Positions 10,171 through 49,679 of a stretch of 64,000 bases of DNA are shown piece after piece. The notes under the pieces were generated by a model. That model made no database searches. It saw only the letters and a list, made by a program, of their open reading frames with translations, and had not been told where the DNA came from. This stretch comes from Sphingobacteriaceae bacterium. GTDB lineage: Bacteria; Bacteroidota; Bacteroidia; Sphingobacteriales; Sphingobacteriaceae. A program made the translations under genes and the position numbers. Numbering within the stretch: position 1 is the first letter of the stretch; each line of letters starts with the position of its first letter. Where the stretch lies: contig JAGIAD010000001.1 in assembly GCA_017745075.1 (NCBI GenBank), positions 186,001 through 250,000 on the forward strand, in the 5' to 3' direction.

Positions 10171-11640
10171 TTACCTGGTATAATTAGGTGCTTCTTTGGT
10201 GATCGTAATATCATGCGGATGGCTTTCGCGCATACCTGCGGCAGTAATCTGTACAAACTGCGCTTCCTGTAAAGCTGCAATATCTGCTGCTCCGCAGTAA
10301 CCCATACTGGCGCGTAAACCACCAATATATTGGTACATTACTTCGGCCAGGGTTCCTTTAAACGGCACACGTCCTACAATACCTTCCGGAACCAGTTTTT
10401 TAATATCATCTTCCACATCCTGGAAATAACGGTCTTTAGATCCCTGTTCCATAGCCTCGATCGATCCCATCCCGCGGTAAGATTTAAATTTACGTCCTTC
10501 GTAGATAATGGTTTCACCCGGCGATTCTTCCACCCCTGCAAATAACGAACCTGCCATTACGGTACTTGCACCAGATGCAATGGCTTTTGCAATATCGCCG
10601 GTATGTTTAATACCACCATCAGCAATAACTGGTACACCGGTACCTTTTAATGCTTTAGCACATTCGTACACTGCATATAACTGAGGAACCCCAACACCAG
10701 CGATAATCCTTGTGGTACAGATAGAACCCGGACCAATACCTACTTTAACGGCATCAGCACCAGCATCAGCCAAAAATTTCGCAGCAGCGCCGGTAGCGAT
10801 ATTTCCAACAATAACCTGTAGATCAGGATATTTAGCTTTAACTTCTTTTAATTTATCAACTACTCCTTTCGAGTGTCCGTGTGCGGTATCGATGGTAATT
10901 ACGTCGACTCCAGCCGAAACCAAAGCATCAACCCTTAATATGGTATCGGCAGTTACTCCAACCGCAGCACCTACGCGTAAACGGCCGCGCTCATCTTTAC
11001 AGGCAACCGGGTAATTTTTAACTTTAGAAATATCCTTAAAAGTAATTAAACCGCTCAGGTAACCATCTTTGCTTACTACGGGAAGTTTCTCGATTTTATG
11101 GTTCTGAAGAATTTCTTCGGCCTGTACCAACGTTGTACCTTCTGGTGCAATGATGAGGTTTTCTTTCGTCATGACTTCAGAAATCGGTCTTTTCATATCC
11201 TTCTGAAAACGCAGATCCCTGTTTGTAATAATACCAACCAATTTATTGTCGCTGCTCACTACCGGGATACCACCTATTTTATGTTCTTTCATGATTTTGA
11301 AAGCATCAGCCACAACTGCCGTTTCCAATAAGGTAACAGGATCCTGAATCATACCACTTTCTGAACGTTTTACCTTACGTACCTCAGCAGCCTGTCTTTC
11401 AATCGTCATGTTTTTGTGCAACATCCCGATACCACCATTCTGCGCAATGGCAATGGCAAGTTCGGCTTCTGTTACAGTATCCATTGCTGCAGAAATCAAC
11501 GGAACGTTAAGTTTGATTTTTTTGGTTAAAAAAGTGGATGTATTTACTTCACGCGGCAGAATTTCTGAATAGGCAGGTACTAGAAGTACGTCGTCGTAAG
11601 TTAAACCTGTGGCAATAAATTTTGTGGAATCGAGTTGCAT
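10171..11640 (-). CDS. guaB: Inosine-5'-monophosphate dehydrogenase
   Basis: IMPDH oxidises IMP to XMP, the committed step of GTP synthesis. The 489-residue length is standard. Visible features are the N-terminal [16 protein letters not shown], two CBS domains at about residues 95-210, the catalytic-cysteine loop [17 protein letters not shown], the [16 protein letters not shown] phosphate site, and the flap with KRYF-like KDRYFQD. Its start codon is only 20 bp from the prophage attL repeat. The prophage therefore sits in its promoter (see 11,673-11,703). Confidence 0.97.
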
Positions 11641-11659
11641 AGCAAATAAATTAGGATTT

Positions 11660-11677
11660 ATTATTTGCCGGACAAAG
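11660..11677. other. attL core, left end of prophage
   Basis: The 18-bp sequence ATTATTTGCCGGACAAAG is repeated perfectly at 51,217-51,234. Flanking bases diverge at once on the prophage side. The integrase gene starts 145 bp inside. The two copies enclose integrase, structural genes and repressor, as expected for attL/attR of a 39.6-kb prophage. Confidence 0.88.
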
Positions 11678-11703
11678 TTACCATAAATAAAAGAAGTAGC
11701 AAA
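11673..11703 (-). promoter_or_regulatory. guaB promoter, partly supplied by the prophage
   Basis: On the minus strand TTTG (11,700-11,703), a 19-bp spacer and TAACTTTG (11,673-11,680) match the Bacteroidota TTTG-N19-TAnnTTTG consensus exactly. Only the last five bases (CTTTG) lie in the att core. The spacer, the -33 element and TAA of the -7 element lie on the prophage side. Confidence 0.75.
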
Positions 11704-11763
11704 TAGTTTAAATAAAACTAATCAAACCTTACACAAACAAAACAAACTAAAATATTTAGTATT

Positions 11764-11778
11764 ACTAATATTATTAGT
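11764..11778. promoter_or_regulatory. Palindromic site upstream of the integrase
   Basis: ACTAATA-T-TATTAGT is a perfect 7-bp inverted repeat in very AT-rich DNA 44 bp before the int start. A -7-like TAAATTTG follows at 11,795-11,802, but no good -33 element is present. It could be an operator or an accessory recombination site. Confidence 0.4.
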
Positions 11779-11821
11779 TTAAATATTTATTTTTTAAATT
11801 TGCTTACACTATACTTACACC

Positions 11822-12949
11822 ATGAGCGAGCCCAAAATTATTTTTTACAAACACAAGACTTATTCTGATGGAACAAGCCCCATCATAATTCAATATGTTG
11901 AAAGAGGCAAACCTTTTCGAAAAGTTATTTCTAAATGCCTACCAACTGAATGGCTTAAATCTAAAAATCGTGTCAGTTCGAAAAACATTCAATACGTTAG
12001 AATTAATGACGAAATTGAAAAAGCTCTAAAAGAATTTGGAACTCGTAAAAACCATACATTAAGCGACTACTGGGGTTCTTTTATAGAAAACCTTAAAAAG
12101 ACACAGCAAGTTTCATTATACAATGGCCATAATACTCTAAAAGATCAAGTTTTTGAATATTTCCCCAAAGTTGACTTCAGGCATCTAGATAAAGATTTTA
12201 TTATCGGATTTACTGAATTTCTTAAAATTAGAAAGGATAACAAAGAAGGAACTATACGCACAAAAATGCAACAAATGGGGAAGCTCCTAAAAGAAGCGAT
12301 CAAAGACAAGTTATTAAAAGAGCATCCAATGTCAGATTTAACGTTTCCAAAAGGCAAAAACAGAAAAGAAAAGCTCAATGTGGAAGAAATGAAAGCGATA
12401 AAAGAATTGGAGTACAGTCCGAAAATGGATTTAGTCCGCGACTTCTGTATGGCTGCATTTTACCTTCGAGGAATACGTGTTGGCGATCTTCTATGCCTCA
12501 CTGTAGAAGATATTAAGAATGGTCGTGTATCCTACTTCGAGATAAAAACAGGCAAGTTTAGAAACATTGCAATCGTACCCGAACTTAAGATCATATTTGA
12601 TAGACAATGCAAAAGTAAACACGGATATGTTTTTGATTTTATTAATGTTCCTAAAAGGGCGCTTAATAACAAGTTTTTACAAAAACGAGAAATTATGAAG
12701 GCTACAGCGAAAATTAGATACTGGATGCTTAAGATGGTAAAAGTTCTTGAAATCCACAAAAAGGTTTCGCCACATACAATTAGACACTCCTTTTCTAAGC
12801 TAGCCAATATTATTATCAAAAACACTGTGGTAACTAAAGACCTAGTCGGCCACAGTTCTTTAGAAATTCACGAAAATTACATTAGTGATATATCTGATGA
12901 TTTAGAAATGGATGAATATGCAGACAGTGTTATTGAAAAATTAAGATGA
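11822..12949 (+). CDS. Tyrosine recombinase/phage integrase
   Basis: This 375-residue site-specific recombinase should integrate and excise the prophage at the att repeat. An N-terminal arm-binding region and a SAM-like core-binding domain (about residues 80-170) precede the catalytic domain. Expected catalytic residues are visible: R219 in RGIRVGDLL, K242 in EIKTGK, H318/R321 in HTIRHSF, H344 in GHSSLEIH and the nucleophile Y353 in ENYISD. It overlaps the next small gene by 4 bp. Confidence 0.95.
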   Translation: MSEPKIIFYKHKTYSDGTSPIIIQYVERGKPFRKVISKCLPTEWLKSKNRVSSKNIQYVRINDEIEKALKEFGTRKNHTLSDYWGSFIENLKKTQQVSLYNGHNTLKDQVFEYFPKVDFRHLDKDFIIGFTEFLKIRKDNKEGTIRTKMQQMGKLLKEAIKDKLLKEHPMSDLTFPKGKNRKEKLNVEEMKAIKELEYSPKMDLVRDFCMAAFYLRGIRVGDLLCLTVEDIKNGRVSYFEIKTGKFRNIAIVPELKIIFDRQCKSKHGYVFDFINVPKRALNNKFLQKREIMKATAKIRYWMLKMVKVLEIHKKVSPHTIRHSFSKLANIIIKNTVVTKDLVGHSSLEIHENYISDISDDLEMDEYADSVIEKLR

Positions 12950-13184: not shown

Positions 13185-13622
13185 ATGGTATCAGTATTAA
13201 ATCTTACCGCTAAGGTAATCCAAAAGTACAAAAAGGAAAGTGTATCGAAGCTGATTAAATTAGCCGAGAAGCATTTTAATGCCTACATCCGCTTACGTGA
13301 TGACCGGGGCGGCTATTTCGTTTGTATTTCCTGTAATTCCACTAAAGCGATTACCACCGCGTATCATGCCGGACACTACCTATCCGCTGGCCACCATTCT
13401 TATCATAGGTTTAACGAACTTAACGTACATGGGCAATGCCTTCGGTGCAACTGCCACTTACATGGCAATTTAATTCCGTATCGAACAAATCTGGTTAAAA
13501 AGATTGGAGAACAGGCGGTACTAGAATTAGAATCAACAAAAAACCTTTCAATTAAATGGGATCGCTTAGACCTTATAGCAATCATCGAAACCTATAAATC
13601 AAAACTTAAACAAGCAGCGTAA
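13185..13622 (+). CDS. NinG/Rap-like recombination nuclease
   Basis: This 145-residue protein resembles phage lambda NinG (Rap), a Holliday-junction/D-loop endonuclease acting in phage recombination. The family pattern is clear: a zinc-like CISC pair, AGHYLSAGHHSYHRFNELN, then QCLRCNCHLHGNLIPYR (second CxxC and GN..YR). The gene sits between the integrase and the packaging genes, and its stop overlaps the start of the next small ORF. Confidence 0.88.
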   Translation: MVSVLNLTAKVIQKYKKESVSKLIKLAEKHFNAYIRLRDDRGGYFVCISCNSTKAITTAYHAGHYLSAGHHSYHRFNELNVHGQCLRCNCHLHGNLIPYRTNLVKKIGEQAVLELESTKNLSIKWDRLDLIAIIETYKSKLKQAA

Positions 13623-22463: not shown

Positions 22464-22539
<76 letters not shown>

Positions 22540-39510: not shown

Positions 39511-39532
39511 ATATCGGGTAATTACCCGATAT
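39511..39532. repeat. Perfect 22-bp palindrome
   Basis: ATATCGGGTA followed by ATTACCCGATAT reads identically on both strands. It touches the stop codon of the last DGR gene. It could be a terminator stem, a dimeric protein operator, or an RNA 3'-end structure of the DGR transcript. Confidence 0.6.
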
Positions 39533-39834
39533 CATGTAAATTTATAGCATTTATTGTCTTTTACAATTGTTGTGGTGAAAGGAAAATCTTCCGGAGTAGT
39601 TTTAGAAATTAAATCCATTAACACACCTGATCCGGTAAATAATATATGTTCTTTCCCATCTAAATCGAATTGTAGGTTAAGGCGTTTTCCGTTTCCTTTG
39701 TCTGAGAATTTACTTGGTTCTATTTTATAGTTTTTTACCGTTATCTCCCTGTTAATGATATTGTAGATTTCTATTTTATCTCCAGTTAAAAAATTACTTG
39801 TTGATTTGATGTTTAGGTCTTTGAATGTTTTCAT
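39532..39834 (-). CDS. Small protein downstream of and overlapping the DGR reverse transcriptase
   Basis: 100 residues, MKTFKDLNIKSTSNFLTGDK, beta-rich, with KIEIYNIINREITVKNYKIE, LILFTGSGVLMDLI-like HILFTGSGVLMDLI, and an end FPFTTTIVKDNKCYKFT. It overlaps the RT 3' end by 41 bp, so it is co-transcribed. It is not similar to the four-helix Avd accessory protein. I recall similar proteins beside reverse transcriptases in Bacteroidota phages. An accessory role is possible but unproven. Confidence 0.62.
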   Translation of the reverse strand: MKTFKDLNIKSTSNFLTGDKIEIYNIINREITVKNYKIEPSKFSDKGNGKRLNLQFDLDGKEHILFTGSGVLMDLISKTTPEDFPFTTTIVKDNKCYKFT

Positions 39835-40783
39835 TAGGTATGAGCGTTTTAAGTAAGTGTCGGCTATTACAGTGTATGGCCCAGCCTTTATAAGCTGCTA
39901 TCGATTGAGGGTTTTTATTTTTCGATAGCATCTTGGCGAAGCGTTTTTTAATTGATTTTCTAAGTAATTTGTGAGTGTGGTAATGAACGTATCCAACAAA
40001 GTCTATACCCCTTGCAGCGATAGGAAATACCTGATAATTTCCTTTAACGGACAATTTTAAATTATCCTGTAAATAAGCTCGTATTTCAGATAATAAATTA
40101 TGAAGGTAGTCTTTGCTGTCAGAAAGTATTACGAGGTCATCAGCGTAGCGAAAGTAATGTTTTACGCCTTTTGTTTCCTTTATCCAATGATCAAAATAAG
40201 AAAGATAAAAGTTAGCAAAATATTGACTTAAGTAATTACCTATGGGAAGCCCATCTGCGCTATTTATAATTTCATCGAGTAGCCAAAGTAAATCCTGATC
40301 TTTAAACTTTCTTCTTAAAAGTGATTTTAAAATATCATGGTTAACACTTGGGTAGAACTTTGTTATATCCAGCTTAAGGCAATAAGTCGTATTTTCTGTA
40401 TCTGACAGTGATTTACTTAATGATTTGCTGGCAGCGTGTATTCCCTTGCCTTTAATGCAACTGTAAGTGTCTGTTGTGAAGTTTGCAACGAATATAGGTT
40501 CAAGGATGTTCATTATTGCATGATGGGTAATCCTATCCGGCCAATATGGAAGCCTGTAAACATCGCGTTCTTTCGGTTCGTAAACCTTGAAAGTTTCGTA
40601 GTTTGATGTTTTGTAAGTTTTATCGATCAGCATATTTTGAAGCTTAAACAGGTTCATTTCTTCGTTTTTCATATGAGAAATGACACCATATTGCTTCTTT
40701 TTGCCTTTTCTGGCAAGTGAATCGGCCAATTCCAGGTTACTGATATCGTATATTTTTGGATATAGATTATTTAATCTTTTCAT
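39794..40783 (-). CDS. Diversity-generating retroelement reverse transcriptase
   Basis: 329 residues. It copies TR RNA into cDNA with adenine-specific misincorporation. Palm motifs are visible: the first aspartate D139 in LKLDITKFYPS, IGNYLSQ at 181-187, the DGR-type version of RT motif 4 that replaces QGxxxSP, and YADD at 213-216 in YFRYADDLVIL. The fingers region has VYEPKERDVYRLPYWPDRIT. No maturase, endonuclease or retron-type C-terminal domain is present. The TR lies 110 bp upstream on the same strand. Confidence 0.96.
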   Translation of the reverse strand: MKRLNNLYPKIYDISNLELADSLARKGKKKQYGVISHMKNEEMNLFKLQNMLIDKTYKTSNYETFKVYEPKERDVYRLPYWPDRITHHAIMNILEPIFVANFTTDTYSCIKGKGIHAASKSLSKSLSDTENTTYCLKLDITKFYPSVNHDILKSLLRRKFKDQDLLWLLDEIINSADGLPIGNYLSQYFANFYLSYFDHWIKETKGVKHYFRYADDLVILSDSKDYLHNLLSEIRAYLQDNLKLSVKGNYQVFPIAARGIDFVGYVHYHTHKLLRKSIKKRFAKMLSKNKNPQSIAAYKGWAIHCNSRHLLKTLIPNENIQRPKHQINK

Positions 40784-40892
40784 GCCTTTGTTTTATTAGG
40801 TCGTTTTCGGTTACCCTACTAACGCCCTTTTAAAAATTAGTTGTCTTTTGCCGTGCGGGCACGGTCTGCAGCATTAATAAGTTTATTAACAC
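40784..40892 (-). ncRNA. Structured spacer between TR and RT
   Basis: This non-coding stretch contains two perfect hairpins: CCGTGC-GG-GCACGG (+ 40,851-40,864) and TTAATAA-GT-TTATTAA (40,874-40,889). In the studied BPP-1 DGR the RNA just downstream of TR is needed for priming and RT binding. The same role is inferred here. Confidence 0.6.
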
Positions 40893-40960
40893 AGGTGGGA
40901 ACTGACATTCGAATTCGTGTTATCGTTATCGTAGTTTTTGTACGAAAAACTGGCACCTGA
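40893..40960 (-). repeat. DGR template repeat (TR)
   Basis: A 68-bp core aligns without gaps to three VRs. On the coding (minus) strand it holds 22 adenines. All 46 other positions are identical in all three VRs. In the VR reading frame the TR reads GSGASFSYKNYDNDNTNSNV then SSH, rich in AAY codons as in other DGR templates. Homology with the VR at 41,458 continues five more bases (to 40,965). Confidence 0.95.
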
Positions 40961-40998
40961 ACCAAACTACAGCCCTAATGCTGCACCACCTTTTTATT

Positions 40999-41376
40999 TT
41001 ACTTCATGAAGCATTTATATTCTTCAAGAAATGTTTGACCTGCAAACTCCGCGATTTCTCGTGTTTTATAAACGAGGCGGGAACCGACAGCCGAATACGC
41101 GCGACCGTAAACGTAGTAGTTGCACGAAAAACCGGCACCCGATTGCCCCTCATAATCTTCCATATCGAACCATGGGTAATATTTACGTTCTTCGTAATTA
41201 TTCCAATCTGGTTTCCAGCCATCATTAAGCACACGGTTAATCCTGATTACCTTTGCAAAGCTGTTTACTGCAGTTTCTTCGCTGTCTGTAGCGTTCGGGT
41301 ATGGAAGAGATTTAATTGGATCAACACCATCAATTTTGCAGATATCTTCGTATGTTTTAATATTTTCTAAGTTCAT
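40999..41376 (-). CDS. DGR target protein 3 (short)
   Basis: 125 residues. The VR covers residues ~79-101 (GAGFSCNYYVYGRAYSAV then GSRL), preceded by the conserved RKYYPWFDMED and followed by a constant C-terminus (VYKTREIAEFAGQTFLEEY). It lacks ~30 N-terminal residues present in the two paralogues upstream. There is no signal peptide or membrane helix. It begins 2 bp after the target 2 stop. Function unknown. Confidence 0.85.
   Translation of the reverse strand: MNLENIKTYEDICKIDGVDPIKSLPYPNATDSEETAVNSFAKVIRINRVLNDGWKPDWNNYEERKYYPWFDMEDYEGQSGAGFSCNYYVYGRAYSAVGSRLVYKTREIAEFAGQTFLEEYKCFMK
41075..41142 (-). repeat. Variable repeat VR3 (in target 3)
   Basis: Aligned to TR it has 16 substitutions in 68 bp, all at template adenines. 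Directly 3' of the repeat (minus strand) CTCGT/ACGAG can form a small hairpin, a feature reported to assist homing in other DGRs. Confidence 0.93.
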
Positions 41377-41378
41377 GA

Positions 41379-41852
41379 CTAACCGTTTATATAATCGTTA
41401 TAAATTTGAGTGAATTGTTTTCCGGCGTAGATTGCTACATCTGATTTTCTAAAACAAAGGCGGGAACCGACAGCCGAAAACGAGTAAGCGAGACCGTAGT
41501 CCTTGCACGAAAAACCGGCACCCGAACCAACGGAGTTAAACCATGGGTAGTACTTGTATTCCTTTACATTATTGTAATTCATCTGAACGCCTTCATTTAA
41601 GGCCAAAACAATCTGCTTTAATGCTCTATACGCTGCTTCATCTTTTGGAAGCTCAGAGTTAACCTTAATGAATGTATTGTAATCAATTCCGTTATATTCA
41701 CAGGCATCTTGAAGCGTTTTTATTCTCTCTTTAATGTCCGTGATCAGAAATTTTTCACCACCAACCAGGTTGGCAATAGCTTTTTTAATTTCTGCATTGC
41801 CATCGTTATAAGCTTTGATGGCGTTTTCTGATTTTATTTCTATAATTTTCAT
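41379..41852 (-). CDS. DGR target protein 2
   Basis: 157 residues. An N-terminal helical domain (IKAYNDGNAEIKKAIANLVG ... IKERIKTLQDACEYNGI) is shared with target 1. Then come KYYPWFNSVGSGAGFSC, the variable segment (residues ~110-131: KDYGLAYSFSAV) and a constant C-terminal GSRLCFRKSDVAIYAGKQF. Unlike many DGR targets, ~25 residues follow the VR. No export signal is visible. Confidence 0.88.
   Translation of the reverse strand: MKIIEIKSENAIKAYNDGNAEIKKAIANLVGGEKFLITDIKERIKTLQDACEYNGIDYNTFIKVNSELPKDEAAYRALKQIVLALNEGVQMNYNNVKEYKYYPWFNSVGSGAGFSCKDYGLAYSFSAVGSRLCFRKSDVAIYAGKQFTQIYNDYING
41458..41525 (-). repeat. Variable repeat VR2 (in target 2)
   Basis: Aligned to TR it has 17 substitutions, all at template adenines. 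Homology to TR extends five bases further at the 5' side than in the other copies. Confidence 0.93.
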
Positions 41853-41858
41853 AGTAGA

Positions 41859-42329
41859 TTAGATGTTAAAGTATTCGTTAATTTCTGTAGTGAAGTTTTT
41901 GCCGAAGTATTGAGCTAATTCAAGCGTTTTAAAGTGGAGGCGGGAACCGACATCCGAATACGCGCAATCGTAACCGTAGACACTGCACGAAAAACCGGCA
42001 CCCGAATTTTTGTACCATACGTAATACTTAGACTGATCATCATCACTCCAATCTGGAACCCATCCTTCGTTTAAGGACCTGATAATCGTAACTACCTTAT
42101 GAGCAGCGAAAGCATGTACCCTGTCAATTTCCGGAAGAAATGAAAAATAGCCAACATTTAATGGTGTTATACCCTGGTGCTCGCATGCATCCTGATAGGA
42201 TTTAATACGCTCTGTAATGTTTAACAGATGCTCCTTACCAACAAGGTTAAGGATAGCGGTCTTTACTTCGCCGGAAGCTTCTTGGTAGCACTTCAAGGCA
42301 TTTTCTTTTGTGATTGATAAAGTGTTCAT
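41859..42329 (-). CDS. DGR target protein 1
   Basis: 156 residues, the promoter-proximal copy. The N-terminal domain LKCYQEASGEVKTAILNLVG ... ITERIKSYQDACEHQGI is homologous to target 2. KYYVWYKNSGAGFSC leads into the variable segment (residues ~109-131: SVYGYDCAYSDV), then GSRLHFKTLELAQYFGKNF. The conserved C-terminal pattern (GSRL.F.t.e.a.y.GK.F) resembles DGR targets I recall from Bacteroidota phages. The ligand is unknown. Confidence 0.88.
   Translation of the reverse strand: MNTLSITKENALKCYQEASGEVKTAILNLVGKEHLLNITERIKSYQDACEHQGITPLNVGYFSFLPEIDRVHAFAAHKVVTIIRSLNEGWVPDWSDDDQSKYYVWYKNSGAGFSCSVYGYDCAYSDVGSRLHFKTLELAQYFGKNFTTEINEYFNI
41938..42005 (-). repeat. Variable repeat VR1 (in target 1)
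   Basis: Aligned to TR it has 16 substitutions, all at template adenines. It is the only copy altered at core positions 43 and 46 (+ strand numbering from the low-coordinate end). Confidence 0.93.
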
Positions 42330-42362: not shown

Positions 42363-42419
42363 TGCAATTATAAGCACTTATTATTGCATTTTAAAATATA
42401 TTTGCAATTATATGCACTT
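42363..42419. promoter_or_regulatory. Repeated motif upstream of the DGR targets
   Basis: TGCAATTATAAGCACTT (42,363-42,379) and TGCAATTATATGCACTT (42,403-42,419) are 17-bp direct repeats with one mismatch, 40 bp apart. They lie between the divergent DGR targets and the 42.4-kb gene. A weak leftward promoter (TTTA-N19-TATAATTG) overlaps the first copy. They are likely regulator binding sites. Confidence 0.5.
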
Positions 42420-42438
42420 TTATTTGCACATTTGTTTT

Positions 42439-47865: not shown

Positions 47866-48144
47866 CTAATATTTTCTGTAGTAATCTTTCATGATATATT
47901 CATCAATTCCTGCAACAGGAAAAACTATCTCCCCTCCTATTGTCGTAAACCCTATATCTTTTTTTTTCTTATATACCCATTGTGGGTTTTTGTTTAGATA
48001 TTCCGCTGTTTCCTTAACCGTTAAAAATTTTTTAATCTTTTCTTTTGGTAAAAGCAACAGGCTTGCAACTTGCTCCTTAAGGGATTCTATAGAGCTGATA
48101 AGCTCATTAAATTTTGCCGTCTCAATAATTGTTACTGCTTCCAT
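47866..48144 (-). CDS. Helix-turn-helix (excisionase-type) DNA-binding protein
   Basis: 92 residues. After a coiled-coil-like N-terminus, LTVKETAEYLNKNPQWVYKK, then GGEIVFPVAGIDEYI is the MerR/Xis-like HTH_17 pattern. It may be the excision factor working with the integrase, or an early regulator. Starts on the stop of the 71-residue gene. Confidence 0.78.
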   Translation of the reverse strand: MEAVTIIETAKFNELISSIESLKEQVASLLLLPKEKIKKFLTVKETAEYLNKNPQWVYKKKKDIGFTTIGGEIVFPVAGIDEYIMKDYYRKY

Positions 48145-48359
48145 TAGGCTACTCTTTTAATTTTTAAAAATCTCCTTTTACCATCCTTAATGGTTTCTGT
48201 TTCGAACTCCATTTCGCATCCGCTGTTAGGTAGAGATCTACTAATTGCCTGTCTGGCTGCTGAACTAGCAGAAATATCTGCAGTCAGCTCTTGTCCCAAC
48301 ACCATAGCTTTTAATCTGTCTGGCCAGGTGATGGGCTTTTGTGTAGTGATTACTTCCAT
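48144..48359 (-). CDS. Small hypothetical protein
   Basis: 71 residues, MEVITTQKPITWPDRLKAMV, with a helical ISASSAARQAISRSLPNSG region and a basic end (DGKRRFLKIKRVA). Possibly a DNA-binding small protein. Overlaps its neighbours by 10 bp and 1 bp. Confidence 0.55.
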   Translation of the reverse strand: MEVITTQKPITWPDRLKAMVLGQELTADISASSAARQAISRSLPNSGCEMEFETETIKDGKRRFLKIKRVA

Positions 48360-48901
48360 TGTTTTGCTTTTTCAGTTACCATTAATATTACTTGCCCTTT
48401 TCGGGTTGTTTTTAATTTTTTATTAATACTTCTTATGTGACTTTTTACCGTATGAACAGATATAAAAAGCTTTTCCCCTATTTCCTTATTTGAGAGATGC
48501 ATGAAAGGGATTAATGTTTGTTCACGCTTTGAAAGCTGCACATCTTGTTTGGTTGGCAAACACCCTACTCCAACGTATTTACAATAGTGTCTTTTACCGC
48601 ACTCAACGTATTCCGGATTAACAGAGCCATCTAAAGCAAAATCCGGTGTGTTGTCAAGGTTGCCGAACATACATCTGGCACATTGTACAAGCTGATCCAT
48701 TTCATTGTTCCCGGCCATTGCCTTGTAAGCGGCTTTTCTCTTTGGACAGGCAAACGCAAAATCTCTAAGTCTTGAAATAATGGATTGATCCGCCTGTGGT
48801 AGATCTGGGATCAATCCGTTTTGTATTACCTTGGTATTATAGCCATAAACGAATATCTCTATTCCGTTTCCTGATAATATACCTTGTAGTGTAGTTTTCA
48901 T
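48350..48901 (-). CDS. LuxR-type HTH regulator with a Cys-rich N-terminus
   Basis: 183 residues. The C-terminal ~60 residues are a GerE/LuxR HTH (LSKREQTLIPFMHLSNKEIG then VHTVKSHIRSINKKL). The N-terminal part has Cys pairs (CARCMFGN ... ECGKRHYCKYVGVGCLP) that could bind a metal. It is the first gene of the leftward early operon, opposite the repressor, so it is likely an early regulator. Confidence 0.85.
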   Translation of the reverse strand: MKTTLQGILSGNGIEIFVYGYNTKVIQNGLIPDLPQADQSIISRLRDFAFACPKRKAAYKAMAGNNEMDQLVQCARCMFGNLDNTPDFALDGSVNPEYVECGKRHYCKYVGVGCLPTKQDVQLSKREQTLIPFMHLSNKEIGEKLFISVHTVKSHIRSINKKLKTTRKGQVILMVTEKAKQWK

Positions 48902-48956
48902 TCTTTTGGACTATTGGTGTATCGGTTAAATATTTATTATCTTTGTTTGTGTGATA

Positions 48957-49019
48957 CAAATATATAACGAATATATAACTTATAAAATAGGTTATATAAA
49001 ATATTTTATTAGTTATATT
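48957..49019. promoter_or_regulatory. Early/lysogeny control region with repeated operators
   Basis: Between the divergent LuxR-type and repressor genes, TATATAAC occurs at 48,961 and 48,972, and its complement GTTATATA (or GTTATATT) at 48,991 and 49,012. A leftward promoter (TTTT-N19-TATATTTG, -7 at 48,957-48,964) overlaps the first copies. These are the natural binding sites for the S24 repressor. Confidence 0.6.
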
Positions 49020-49037
49020 ATAACTTACTGAAAATCA

Positions 49038-49679
49038 ATGACAAAAAATCAACGACTTAAAATTTCAAGGGTGAAAGCTGGTTTAAGTCAGGCTGAATTA
49101 GCTGAAAAGCTCGATTCTAAGCAGCCATATATAGCTAAGCTGGAGAAATCAGATGATTTTAGTGAAGCTCAGGGCAAGAAATTAGCGATAATCCTCGGTG
49201 TAGATCCCGAGTGGCTTATGAATGGGGATGAGAAAGATATTAGGAAAGAAGAAAGAAATATAACCAAAGGGGTGCCATATTACGATTCGGATATAACAGG
49301 TTCAATAGTCGGTAGCTTTTCTGATATAAAGGAAAGACCAGCATTTTTTATAGACTTCAAACCATTTAATGACTGCGATGCATATTTCACAATTCATGGG
49401 GATAGTATGTTTCCAAAATATCAAAGTGGGGATATTTTAGGTATAAAGAAGTGGAATAACCCAAATACTCTGCTTTGGGGCGAAAGTTATTTGGTTATTA
49501 CCGATGCTACCGAAAACGAGATGAAAACAGTAAAAAATGTTCATCCAAATGATAAGGACGACAGTACAATAATACTTAGGGCTTCAAATCCAAATTTTAA
49601 AGGTGATACGATAATAAAAAAGGAAGCCATATTGGTAATGGCTATAATAAAAGGAAAAATTAGAAAAGACCAAATTTAG
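49038..49679 (+). CDS. S24-family phage repressor (CI-like)
   Basis: 213 residues. The N-terminal XRE domain (AGLSQAELAEKLDSKQPYIA) is followed by a LexA/CI-type S24 peptidase-like domain with the nucleophile in IHGDSMFPKYQSGD and the general-base Lys in the EMKTVKNVH region. RecA-stimulated self-cleavage would induce the prophage after DNA damage. It heads the rightward lysogeny operon. Confidence 0.93.
   Translation: MTKNQRLKISRVKAGLSQAELAEKLDSKQPYIAKLEKSDDFSEAQGKKLAIILGVDPEWLMNGDEKDIRKEERNITKGVPYYDSDITGSIVGSFSDIKERPAFFIDFKPFNDCDAYFTIHGDSMFPKYQSGDILGIKKWNNPNTLLWGESYLVITDATENEMKTVKNVHPNDKDDSTIILRASNPNFKGDTIIKKEAILVMAIIKGKIRKDQI

Follow-up and report, generated by a model that had tools for sequence, protein, structure and literature searches.

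An avd-less diversity-generating retroelement with one template repeat, three paralogous targets and a predicted OB-fold partner gene in a Sphingobacteriaceae prophage region

A leftward array of small genes and repeats in a prophage region of a Sphingobacteriaceae bacterium raises the question of what kind of element it forms, how its repeats come to differ and where its variable products act. The array lies in a stretch of 64,000 nucleotides (contig JAGIAD010000001.1, positions 186,001 to 250,000; here denoted the window). We found that it is a diversity-generating retroelement (DGR) without a recognisable avd, consisting of one template repeat (TR), three paralogous targets each with a variable repeat (VR), a DGR-type reverse transcriptase (RT) and, next to it, a small gene predicted to encode an OB fold and here called its partner.

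One template, three variable repeats and a reverse transcriptase

The features, in window coordinates, are as follows.

39532..39834, minus strand: partner gene, 100 amino acids, predicted OB fold, 41-nt overlap with the end of the RT gene
39794..40783, minus strand: DGR-type RT, 329 amino acids
40778..40866, minus strand: structured spacer resembling Rfam RT-17 RNA
40863..40874, minus strand: 3' strand of the TR-closing stem, from covariation
40893..40960, minus strand: TR, 68 nt, non-coding, adjoining the RT gene
40978..40990, minus strand: 5' strand of the TR-closing stem, from covariation
40999..41376, minus strand: target 3, 125 amino acids, phrog_11581
41142-41075, minus strand: VR of target 3
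41379..41852, minus strand: target 2, 157 amino acids, phrog_11581
41525-41458, minus strand: VR of target 2
41859..42329, minus strand: target 1, 156 amino acids, phrog_11581 (unknown function)
42005-41938, minus strand: VR of target 1

The TR is composed of 22 adenines and 46 other bases. When it was recounted against the three VRs, none of the 138 non-adenine cells differed, as against 49 of the 66 adenine cells (16, 17 and 16 of 22 per VR), and 20 of the 22 template adenines were variable in at least one VR. A sequence-only reading had described a complete DGR with adenine-specific variation over a 68-bp core; the recount reproduced the core, its 46 identical positions, the substitutions per VR and every coordinate, and realignment uncovered no change at a non-adenine template position. 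The order is target-TR-RT, with 38 nt between target 3 and the TR. The template resembles repeats that lie within coding genes and differ from it at template adenines, which is what marks a DGR. An adenine-biased repeat scan of window positions 1-62000 on both strands, in overlapping 8-kb pieces, picked up the TR, the three VRs that match it and pairings among VRs, and nothing else; it covers repeats no further apart than one such piece, the last 2 kb of the window lying outside it.

DGR reverse transcriptases carry the motifs IGxxxSQ and YxDD. The window enzyme has both beside a non-coding TR, as IGNYLSQ and YADD, confirming what had been read from the sequence. It matched the reverse transcriptase family phrog_1423 with 410 bits, and 111 phage records, five of them Bordetella. 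A phmmer search of the PDB ranked 8ub7 first (151 bits) and a group II intron RT second (59 bits); the PDB listing titles 8ub7 only 'Reverse transcriptase', and we take it to be the RT of the BPP-1 DGR. The top NCBIfam model was a group II RT at 112 bits against a cut-off of 300, with no DGR RT model listed. The placement outside group II introns and retrons, one of similarity only, stands on the PDB match and the Bordetella records, and is qualified by that sub-cut-off group II model. The SQ motif of DGR RTs is described in passages of PMC3521204.

Scanning loci with related RTs, we found a TR and VR at 76 of the 80 from viruses and 61 of the 68 from genomes; 55 of the 61 genome sets were kept after removal of 6 duplicates. 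The 125 distinct related sets carry two VRs in 94 cases, one in 20 and three in 11. Three targets per template had been called unusual, a view that these counts do not support: pairs of tandem targets are the norm in this RT clade, and sets of three occur repeatedly. Elsewhere, several VRs were reported in 271 of 948 DGRs (passages of the survey PMC6642488), and two to seven targets in Treponema denticola isolates (passages of PMC4891356).

Two near-identical contigs, L079 and L082, have identical TR and VR2 and differ at 11 positions of VR1, all of them at TR adenines. This pair, from relatives of the window phage, shows natural activity in the family and is indirect evidence of directional homing. 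We put a probability of roughly 0.9 on the DGR mechanism, in which the RT would copy the TR with errors at adenines and the cDNA would replace a VR, as seen in the family in this one pair. The figure covers adenine miscopying and VR replacement; the steps that concern the template loop, the partner and intracellular targets are weaker.

Outcome at template adenines

What a template adenine becomes in natural VRs varies with the template base that follows it. The counts are for VRs with a clear frame, 6 others being excluded along with those that run off a contig start. At fourfold synonymous CAG sites G was seen in 186 of 191, whereas synonymous GAA sites were mixed (11 T, 8 C, 7 G and 7 A). 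Deep within the tract, all 10 synonymous AG sites gave G; for AG sites inside the tract in general, the outcome was G in 32/34 when the next base was C, G or T, against 4/10 when it was A. While copying the TR and misreading its adenines, the RT itself may be the cause of this next-base dependence.

At somewhat below even odds, the G at A-before-G sites instead reflects selection for glycine and arginine together with VR ends that were not overwritten, and not reading by the RT. Most A-before-G sites lie at VR ends, where conserved residues are switched from Ser to Gly or from His to Arg; just beyond the VR 3' end, plainly unconverted differences (CTA vs CTT) occur at 102/102 sites; and A is kept at some internal CAG sites (L136, L153 and L156). 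Against this reading stand the synonymous CAG sites with their contrast to GAA, the synonymous AG sites deep in the tract and the dependence of internal AG sites on the base that follows. End arms that escaped overwriting, considered as the sole cause of the fixed A-to-G changes, are weakened by synonymous internal sites in distant relatives. A pure CAG rule is weakened by the kept adenines, and the rule is therefore stated as 'AG not followed by A'. Taken as they are, the natural VRs suggest that error patterns vary among DGR enzymes, which is relevant to their use as mutators.

Targets, partner gene and template RNA

The three targets are paralogous small genes (125-157 amino acids) with internal VRs, lack signal or membrane segments, and belong to a leftward early run on the strand opposite to the late genes. 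By hydropathy, none of 119 distinct targets from the first set of relatives has a hydrophobic N-terminus or membrane-like stretch. In related loci, the upstream genes are for transposition or recombination, and portal or neck genes follow downstream on the opposite strand. Being small, soluble by hydropathy and placed with early genes, the targets may work inside the host cell, at slightly less than even odds, as fast-changing proteins that bind those of the host or of rival phages, perhaps defence proteins; this would be the last step of the proposed mechanism. Phage DGRs are mostly known for varying tail proteins that touch the host exterior, and intracellular targets would mean that phages aim directed hypermutation at intracellular factors. 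Within the phage collection, relatives of the targets came from Bacteroides phages only, and target P0002 had no relatives among the viral contigs. The predicted target structure is poor in the VR, and fold searches, in which a C-type lectin fold was looked for, gave no informative match.

A rather unlikely alternative is that the targets serve as interchangeable adhesins of the tail tip or virion, like Mtd of BPP-1, through which the element shifts host range. Phage DGR targets are usually tail proteins, according to passages of PMC8144416 and PMC12629997; more distant relatives of the window RT have targets of 430-480 amino acids with C-terminal VRs, and in crAssphage LMMB and LoVEphage the RT-adjacent target is annotated as a tail-collar fibre. 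The window targets are much shorter and lie in an early run opposite to the late genes, and the neighbours of their relatives, given above, also count against this reading. Moreover, a single TR of LoVEphage serves two separate VR genes, one for the tail collar and one homologous to a window target.

Of 148 related loci, 131 carry the partner gene, which in relatives either overlaps the end of the RT gene or directly adjoins it. When viral loci were instead found by the partner (n=80, at least 30 of the contigs being shared by name with the RT-found set), the RT lay directly upstream in 79, and the remaining contig starts too close to tell. In a Methanosarcinales virus, the partner again adjoins the RT. 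Nucleic-acid binding is predicted for the partner product, which, judging from linkage and predicted fold, may bind RNA or single-stranded cDNA in the role of Avd. No Avd-like Pfam domain was detected among the 10 proteins scanned. In eight distant relatives, the gap between VR and TR was where an Avd would be expected; instead, the ORFs there weakly resemble the partner (hhalign E 0.001, probability 22; hmmsearch E 0.0003 to 0.09 against a small test set), and only one of them, L145 (E 0.002), matched it when the full ORF set was searched. It is improbable that the partner is a passenger, a standard single-strand-binding or replication gene of the phage that happens to travel with the RT. Its OB fold is predicted and it is absent from some distant loci, but the junction with the RT end in relatives, the RT upstream in nearly all partner-found viral loci and the Methanosarcinales case argue against a mere passenger. 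In the literature surveyed, no accessory protein is named for avd-less DGRs, and the linked OB-fold gene is a concrete candidate.

The flanks of the TR form a covarying 12-pair stem, with 97.3% of 1020 cells paired and 171 two-sided changes, compared with 34-48% paired and 9-21 two-sided changes when the strands were slid in the fixed alignment. This alignment comprises 85 of 108 short-TR sets; the other 23 were dropped because the 3' motif was missing, the spacer length was out of range, the flank was short or the set was identical. The stem result rests on the slid control, since dealing flanks between loci (mean 19.3 vs 15.9, sd 2.8; 12/105 exceeding its 95th percentile) is a weak control because relatives share stems. 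The stem, computed from covariation, would hold the TR RNA in a closed loop beside the structured spacer. That spacer scored 33.6 bits against Rfam RT-17 (RF03020), below the gathering score of 40.4, and RT-17 exceeded the threshold in 4 of 14 relatives tried.

That the window element is an inactive remnant is very improbable, as the reading frames of the RT, the partner and the three targets are uninterrupted and the VRs are unlike one another at template adenines.

Comparison with named systems

Tentatively, and with the odds against it, the element may represent a separate DGR branch, with an OB-fold partner in place of Avd, a stem-closed template loop, an early intracellular repertoire that disarms host or rival-phage proteins, and an RT that reads A before G as G unless A follows. 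If so, the template itself would fix invariant codons among random ones.

The likeness to BPP-1 drawn in the sequence-only reading holds for the adenine-specific variation. It fails for avd, for targets that are not tail genes and for the overlapping small gene, a near-constant partner of the RT. The BPP-1 DGR (mtd, avd, brt) shares with the window element the placement of the TR, upstream of the RT, as well as VR variation confined to A and a related RT. In contrast, BPP-1 has avd, where the window element has no avd-like gene and an OB-fold gene after the RT; its VR is at the C-terminus, whereas the three small non-tail targets carry theirs internally; and the window TR is closed by a stem, unlike that of BPP-1. 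A following C affects A-to-C change oppositely in the two systems, provided that the figures in PMC12875486 are cDNA bases.

RF03020 likewise spans the spacer between TR and RT, and its match to the window copy starts after the TR, so that the 5' strand of the closing stem falls outside it. Lineage 3 of Wu et al., which includes crAssphage LMMB, has the same target-TR-RT order and no avd, a likeness by gene order and not by tree. A further likeness is the VR ending: SRLC is described for lineage 3 in passages of PMC7290462, and the window targets read GSRL. LMMB has a single tail-collar target of 486 amino acids against three small ones, and its gene after the RT does not match the partner profile.

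LoVEphage, a Bacteroides phage, encodes a protein of 194 amino acids that is homologous to target 2 (29% identity, E 7e-7); its VR is longer than those of the window targets. There the homologue is a distal second target, 15.5 kb away, of the one TR that also matches the tail-collar gene; in the window, the small targets lie next to the TR and no others were found, as with the two or three in its relatives.

A diversity-generating retroelement in a prophage

The element consists of three targets, a template repeat (TR), a reverse transcriptase (RT) and a small partner gene, all on the minus strand and in one direction:

42329-41859, minus strand, target 1
41852-41379, minus strand, target 2
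41376-40999, minus strand, target 3
40960-40893, minus strand, TR (68 nt)
40783-39794, minus strand, RT
39834-39532, minus strand, partner gene (100 aa), overlapping the RT end

The sequence-only reading had named this a diversity-generating retroelement (DGR) with one TR serving three targets. A recount showed its hand alignment to be exact: over 68 nt, all 46 non-adenines of the TR are identical in the three variable repeats (VRs), whereas 16, 17 and 16 of the 22 adenines are changed, 20 of them in at least one VR. The identification from raw sequence was correct and the window element is a genuine DGR. Just upstream of target 1 we noticed two 26-nt direct repeats (42363-42388 and 42403-42428), 85% alike and spaced 40 nt apart, which may serve the target genes as operator or promoter.

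The DGR sits inside a prophage, landmarks of which are:

11822-12949, integrase
13185-13622, NinG
49038-49679, CI-like repressor

Terminase, portal, head and tail genes occupy the plus strand. The DGR lies near the end of a leftward early run that includes exonuclease VIII and a replication initiation protein, and this run and the rightward genes meet head to head. An SOS response associated peptidase (SRAP) gene (PF02586, 38497-39213, plus strand) adjoins the DGR on the opposite strand, and a tRNA-Met gene (22464-22539, minus strand) lies within the late-gene region. Another contig of the same genome carries a second DGR of this kind (L090, G000:C30:216000-235999; RT at locus positions 11613-12587, minus strand) with its own TR and two VRs; its RT and partner gene are 65% and 66% identical to those of the window. 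Such RTs were found in 4 of 119 genomes sampled from the genus, its own genome counted.

Related loci, the template stem and evidence of natural homing

The comparison drew on 80 viral-contig loci, the best among 319 relatives, and on 68 loci from genomes. An ungapped, adenine-biased search near the RT detected a TR and VRs in 76 and 61 of them, respectively. In ten of the 11 misses the sequence upstream of the RT is shorter than 350 nt; the remaining one is L160 (36% identity). Removal of duplicates left a first set of 70, in which the two elements of the window's genome are counted, and a second set of 55 from genome loci. Two VRs are present in 94 of these 125, one in 20 and three in 11, the commonest form being one TR that serves a long target (about 150 aa) and a short one (about 125-138 aa). 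Three VRs also occur in named Flavobacterium, Pedobacter and Chryseobacterium records (L100, L102, L125, L132, L151, L152). Distant relatives with longer TRs make up 16 of the 20 single-VR sets, and their targets are in nearly all cases 430-480 aa long. In an Ignavibacteria record (L118), the third VR is well separated from the other two, lying some 3.5 kb upstream of the RT.

Of the 108 short-TR sets, 85 were aligned over the stretch that begins 45 nt ahead of the TR and ends where the RT starts; RNAalifold then gave a consensus 12-pair stem joining both TR flanks, together with a short hairpin adjoining it and a longer one before the RT start. In the TR-closing stem (40990-40978 with 40874-40863 in the window), 97.3% of 1020 cells are paired and 171 are changed on both sides, against 34-48% and 9-21 when the partner is shifted by 1-3 columns, figures favoured by kinship among the sequences and by picking the structure on the same alignment; a control across loci gave a weaker contrast. 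The window spacer resembles Rfam RT-17 with a score under the cut-off, which is exceeded in 4 of 14 relatives.

Two IMG/VR contigs (L079 and L082) are 99.8% identical along 11,122 aligned bases. Of their 25 differences, 14 lie near the alignment edge, past which the contigs diverge. The other 11 are in VR1, all on template adenines, and the TR and VR2 are identical. As read from these sequences, the pair is natural, though indirect, evidence of homing, for the family and not for the window's phage.

Outcomes at template adenines

In both sets the outcome at an adenine varies with the next template base; p-values here are guides, the VRs being partly non-independent. The second A became C at 10 of 543 AAC sites versus 126 of 609 AAT sites, with the same amino acid (p 1e-26, 233 VRs). 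In the first set the contrast held within the same alignment columns (odds ratio 0.19, p 3e-8), and 55 loci went the same way, 3 the opposite way and 11 were equal. The passages of PMC12875486 consulted give, for the Bordetella phage BPP-1, G opposite A at 26.8% when C follows and at 2.5% in NAT; provided that these figures are cDNA bases, the following-C effect in the family would be opposite in sign. The main AAC products in those passages are Tyr, Ser and Asp, which are not easily reconciled with the cDNA-base reading.

An adenine before G is nearly always G in the VRs. For CAG this holds in 98% of 368, 96% of 207 and 96% of 46 cases in three groups, and in 186 of 191 at fourfold synonymous sites; in the window, each VR has G at all three AG sites of the TR. 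Selection for glycine accounts for many such sites, not for the synonymous ones. Un-overwritten ends may account for AG sites at the ends, not for inner ones: inside the tract, AG gave G in 32 of 34 cases if C, G or T came next and in 4 of 10 if A did.

Targets, partner gene and known systems

Targets 1-3 all belong to phrog_11581 (unknown function) and have zero matches in Pfam. The first set holds 119 distinct targets; a simple hydropathy scan found a hydrophobic N-terminus or membrane-like segment in none of them. In the target structure model, helices surround a poorly predicted VR. Of 82 related loci, annotated through one representative per cluster, 22 have a Mu-like transposition protein and 28 a Sak4-like ATPase among the co-directional neighbours upstream, and 28 have neck and 22 portal proteins among the opposite-strand neighbours downstream. 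Target 2, the one target compared with a phage collection, matched six records there, each from a Bacteroides phage: LoVEphage (four), BI-TP1 and BT-TP2 (partial). The LoVEphage TR matches two VRs, one in a tail-collar gene (13 of 27 adenines and 1 of 91 non-adenines differ) and one in a distal 194-aa gene (19 of 26 and 0 of 87). The latter gene, on the opposite strand, is 15.5 kb distant and has a cytosine methyltransferase less than 2 kb away. In one LoVEphage record (L245, MW660583.1, near 48000-49120) RT profile matches fall in three frames and the RT frame looks interrupted. In four gut prophage species, unnamed in the passages of PMC12629997 consulted, distal second VRs are reported close to genes for counter-defence. 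The window targets are therefore probably proteins of the kind encoded by the LoVEphage distal gene, split from the tail target and multiplied. We infer that they may act inside the cell, perhaps in counter-defence.

Among 10 proteins scanned there was no Avd-like Pfam match (Avd being the BPP-1 accessory protein), and the gap between target 3 and TR is only 38 nt. The partner profile matched in 131 of 148 related loci, and wherever placed (71 loci) the partner gene starts at the RT end. Conversely, among the best 80 of 88 viral relatives of the partner, a set sharing at least 30 contigs by name with the RT-found one, the RT is directly upstream in 79 and the remaining gene starts too near the contig end; a Methanosarcinales virus carries the same pair. 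The partner structure model is confident (pLDDT 91.6), and its ranked matches include, at moderate scores, nucleic-acid-binding proteins, which we take to be OB folds. The survey of Wu et al. reportedly names a further conserved hypothetical family. It lies outside the portions of the DGR literature covered here, in which no such partner is named, so that an earlier mention is possible; the accessory proteins named in the passages of PMC10053308 consulted are Avd, HRDC and MSL.

Viewed as a DGR alone, the element is ordinary. Its novelty, and the reason to study it, lies in its belonging to an avd-less branch in which a nearly constant partner with a predicted OB fold is joined by a template closed by a stem and by small targets among early genes. 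In the 17 loci where the partner profile had no match, three contigs stop at the RT (L023, L065, L150) and no partner was found in six (L073, L153, L155, L157, L159, L160). The other eight, all distant (L127, L129, L138, L140, L141, L142, L145, L156), have targets of 440-480 aa. Their VR and TR are separated by a gene for 112-120 aa whose similarity to the partner is weak and whose position is that of avd in BPP-1.
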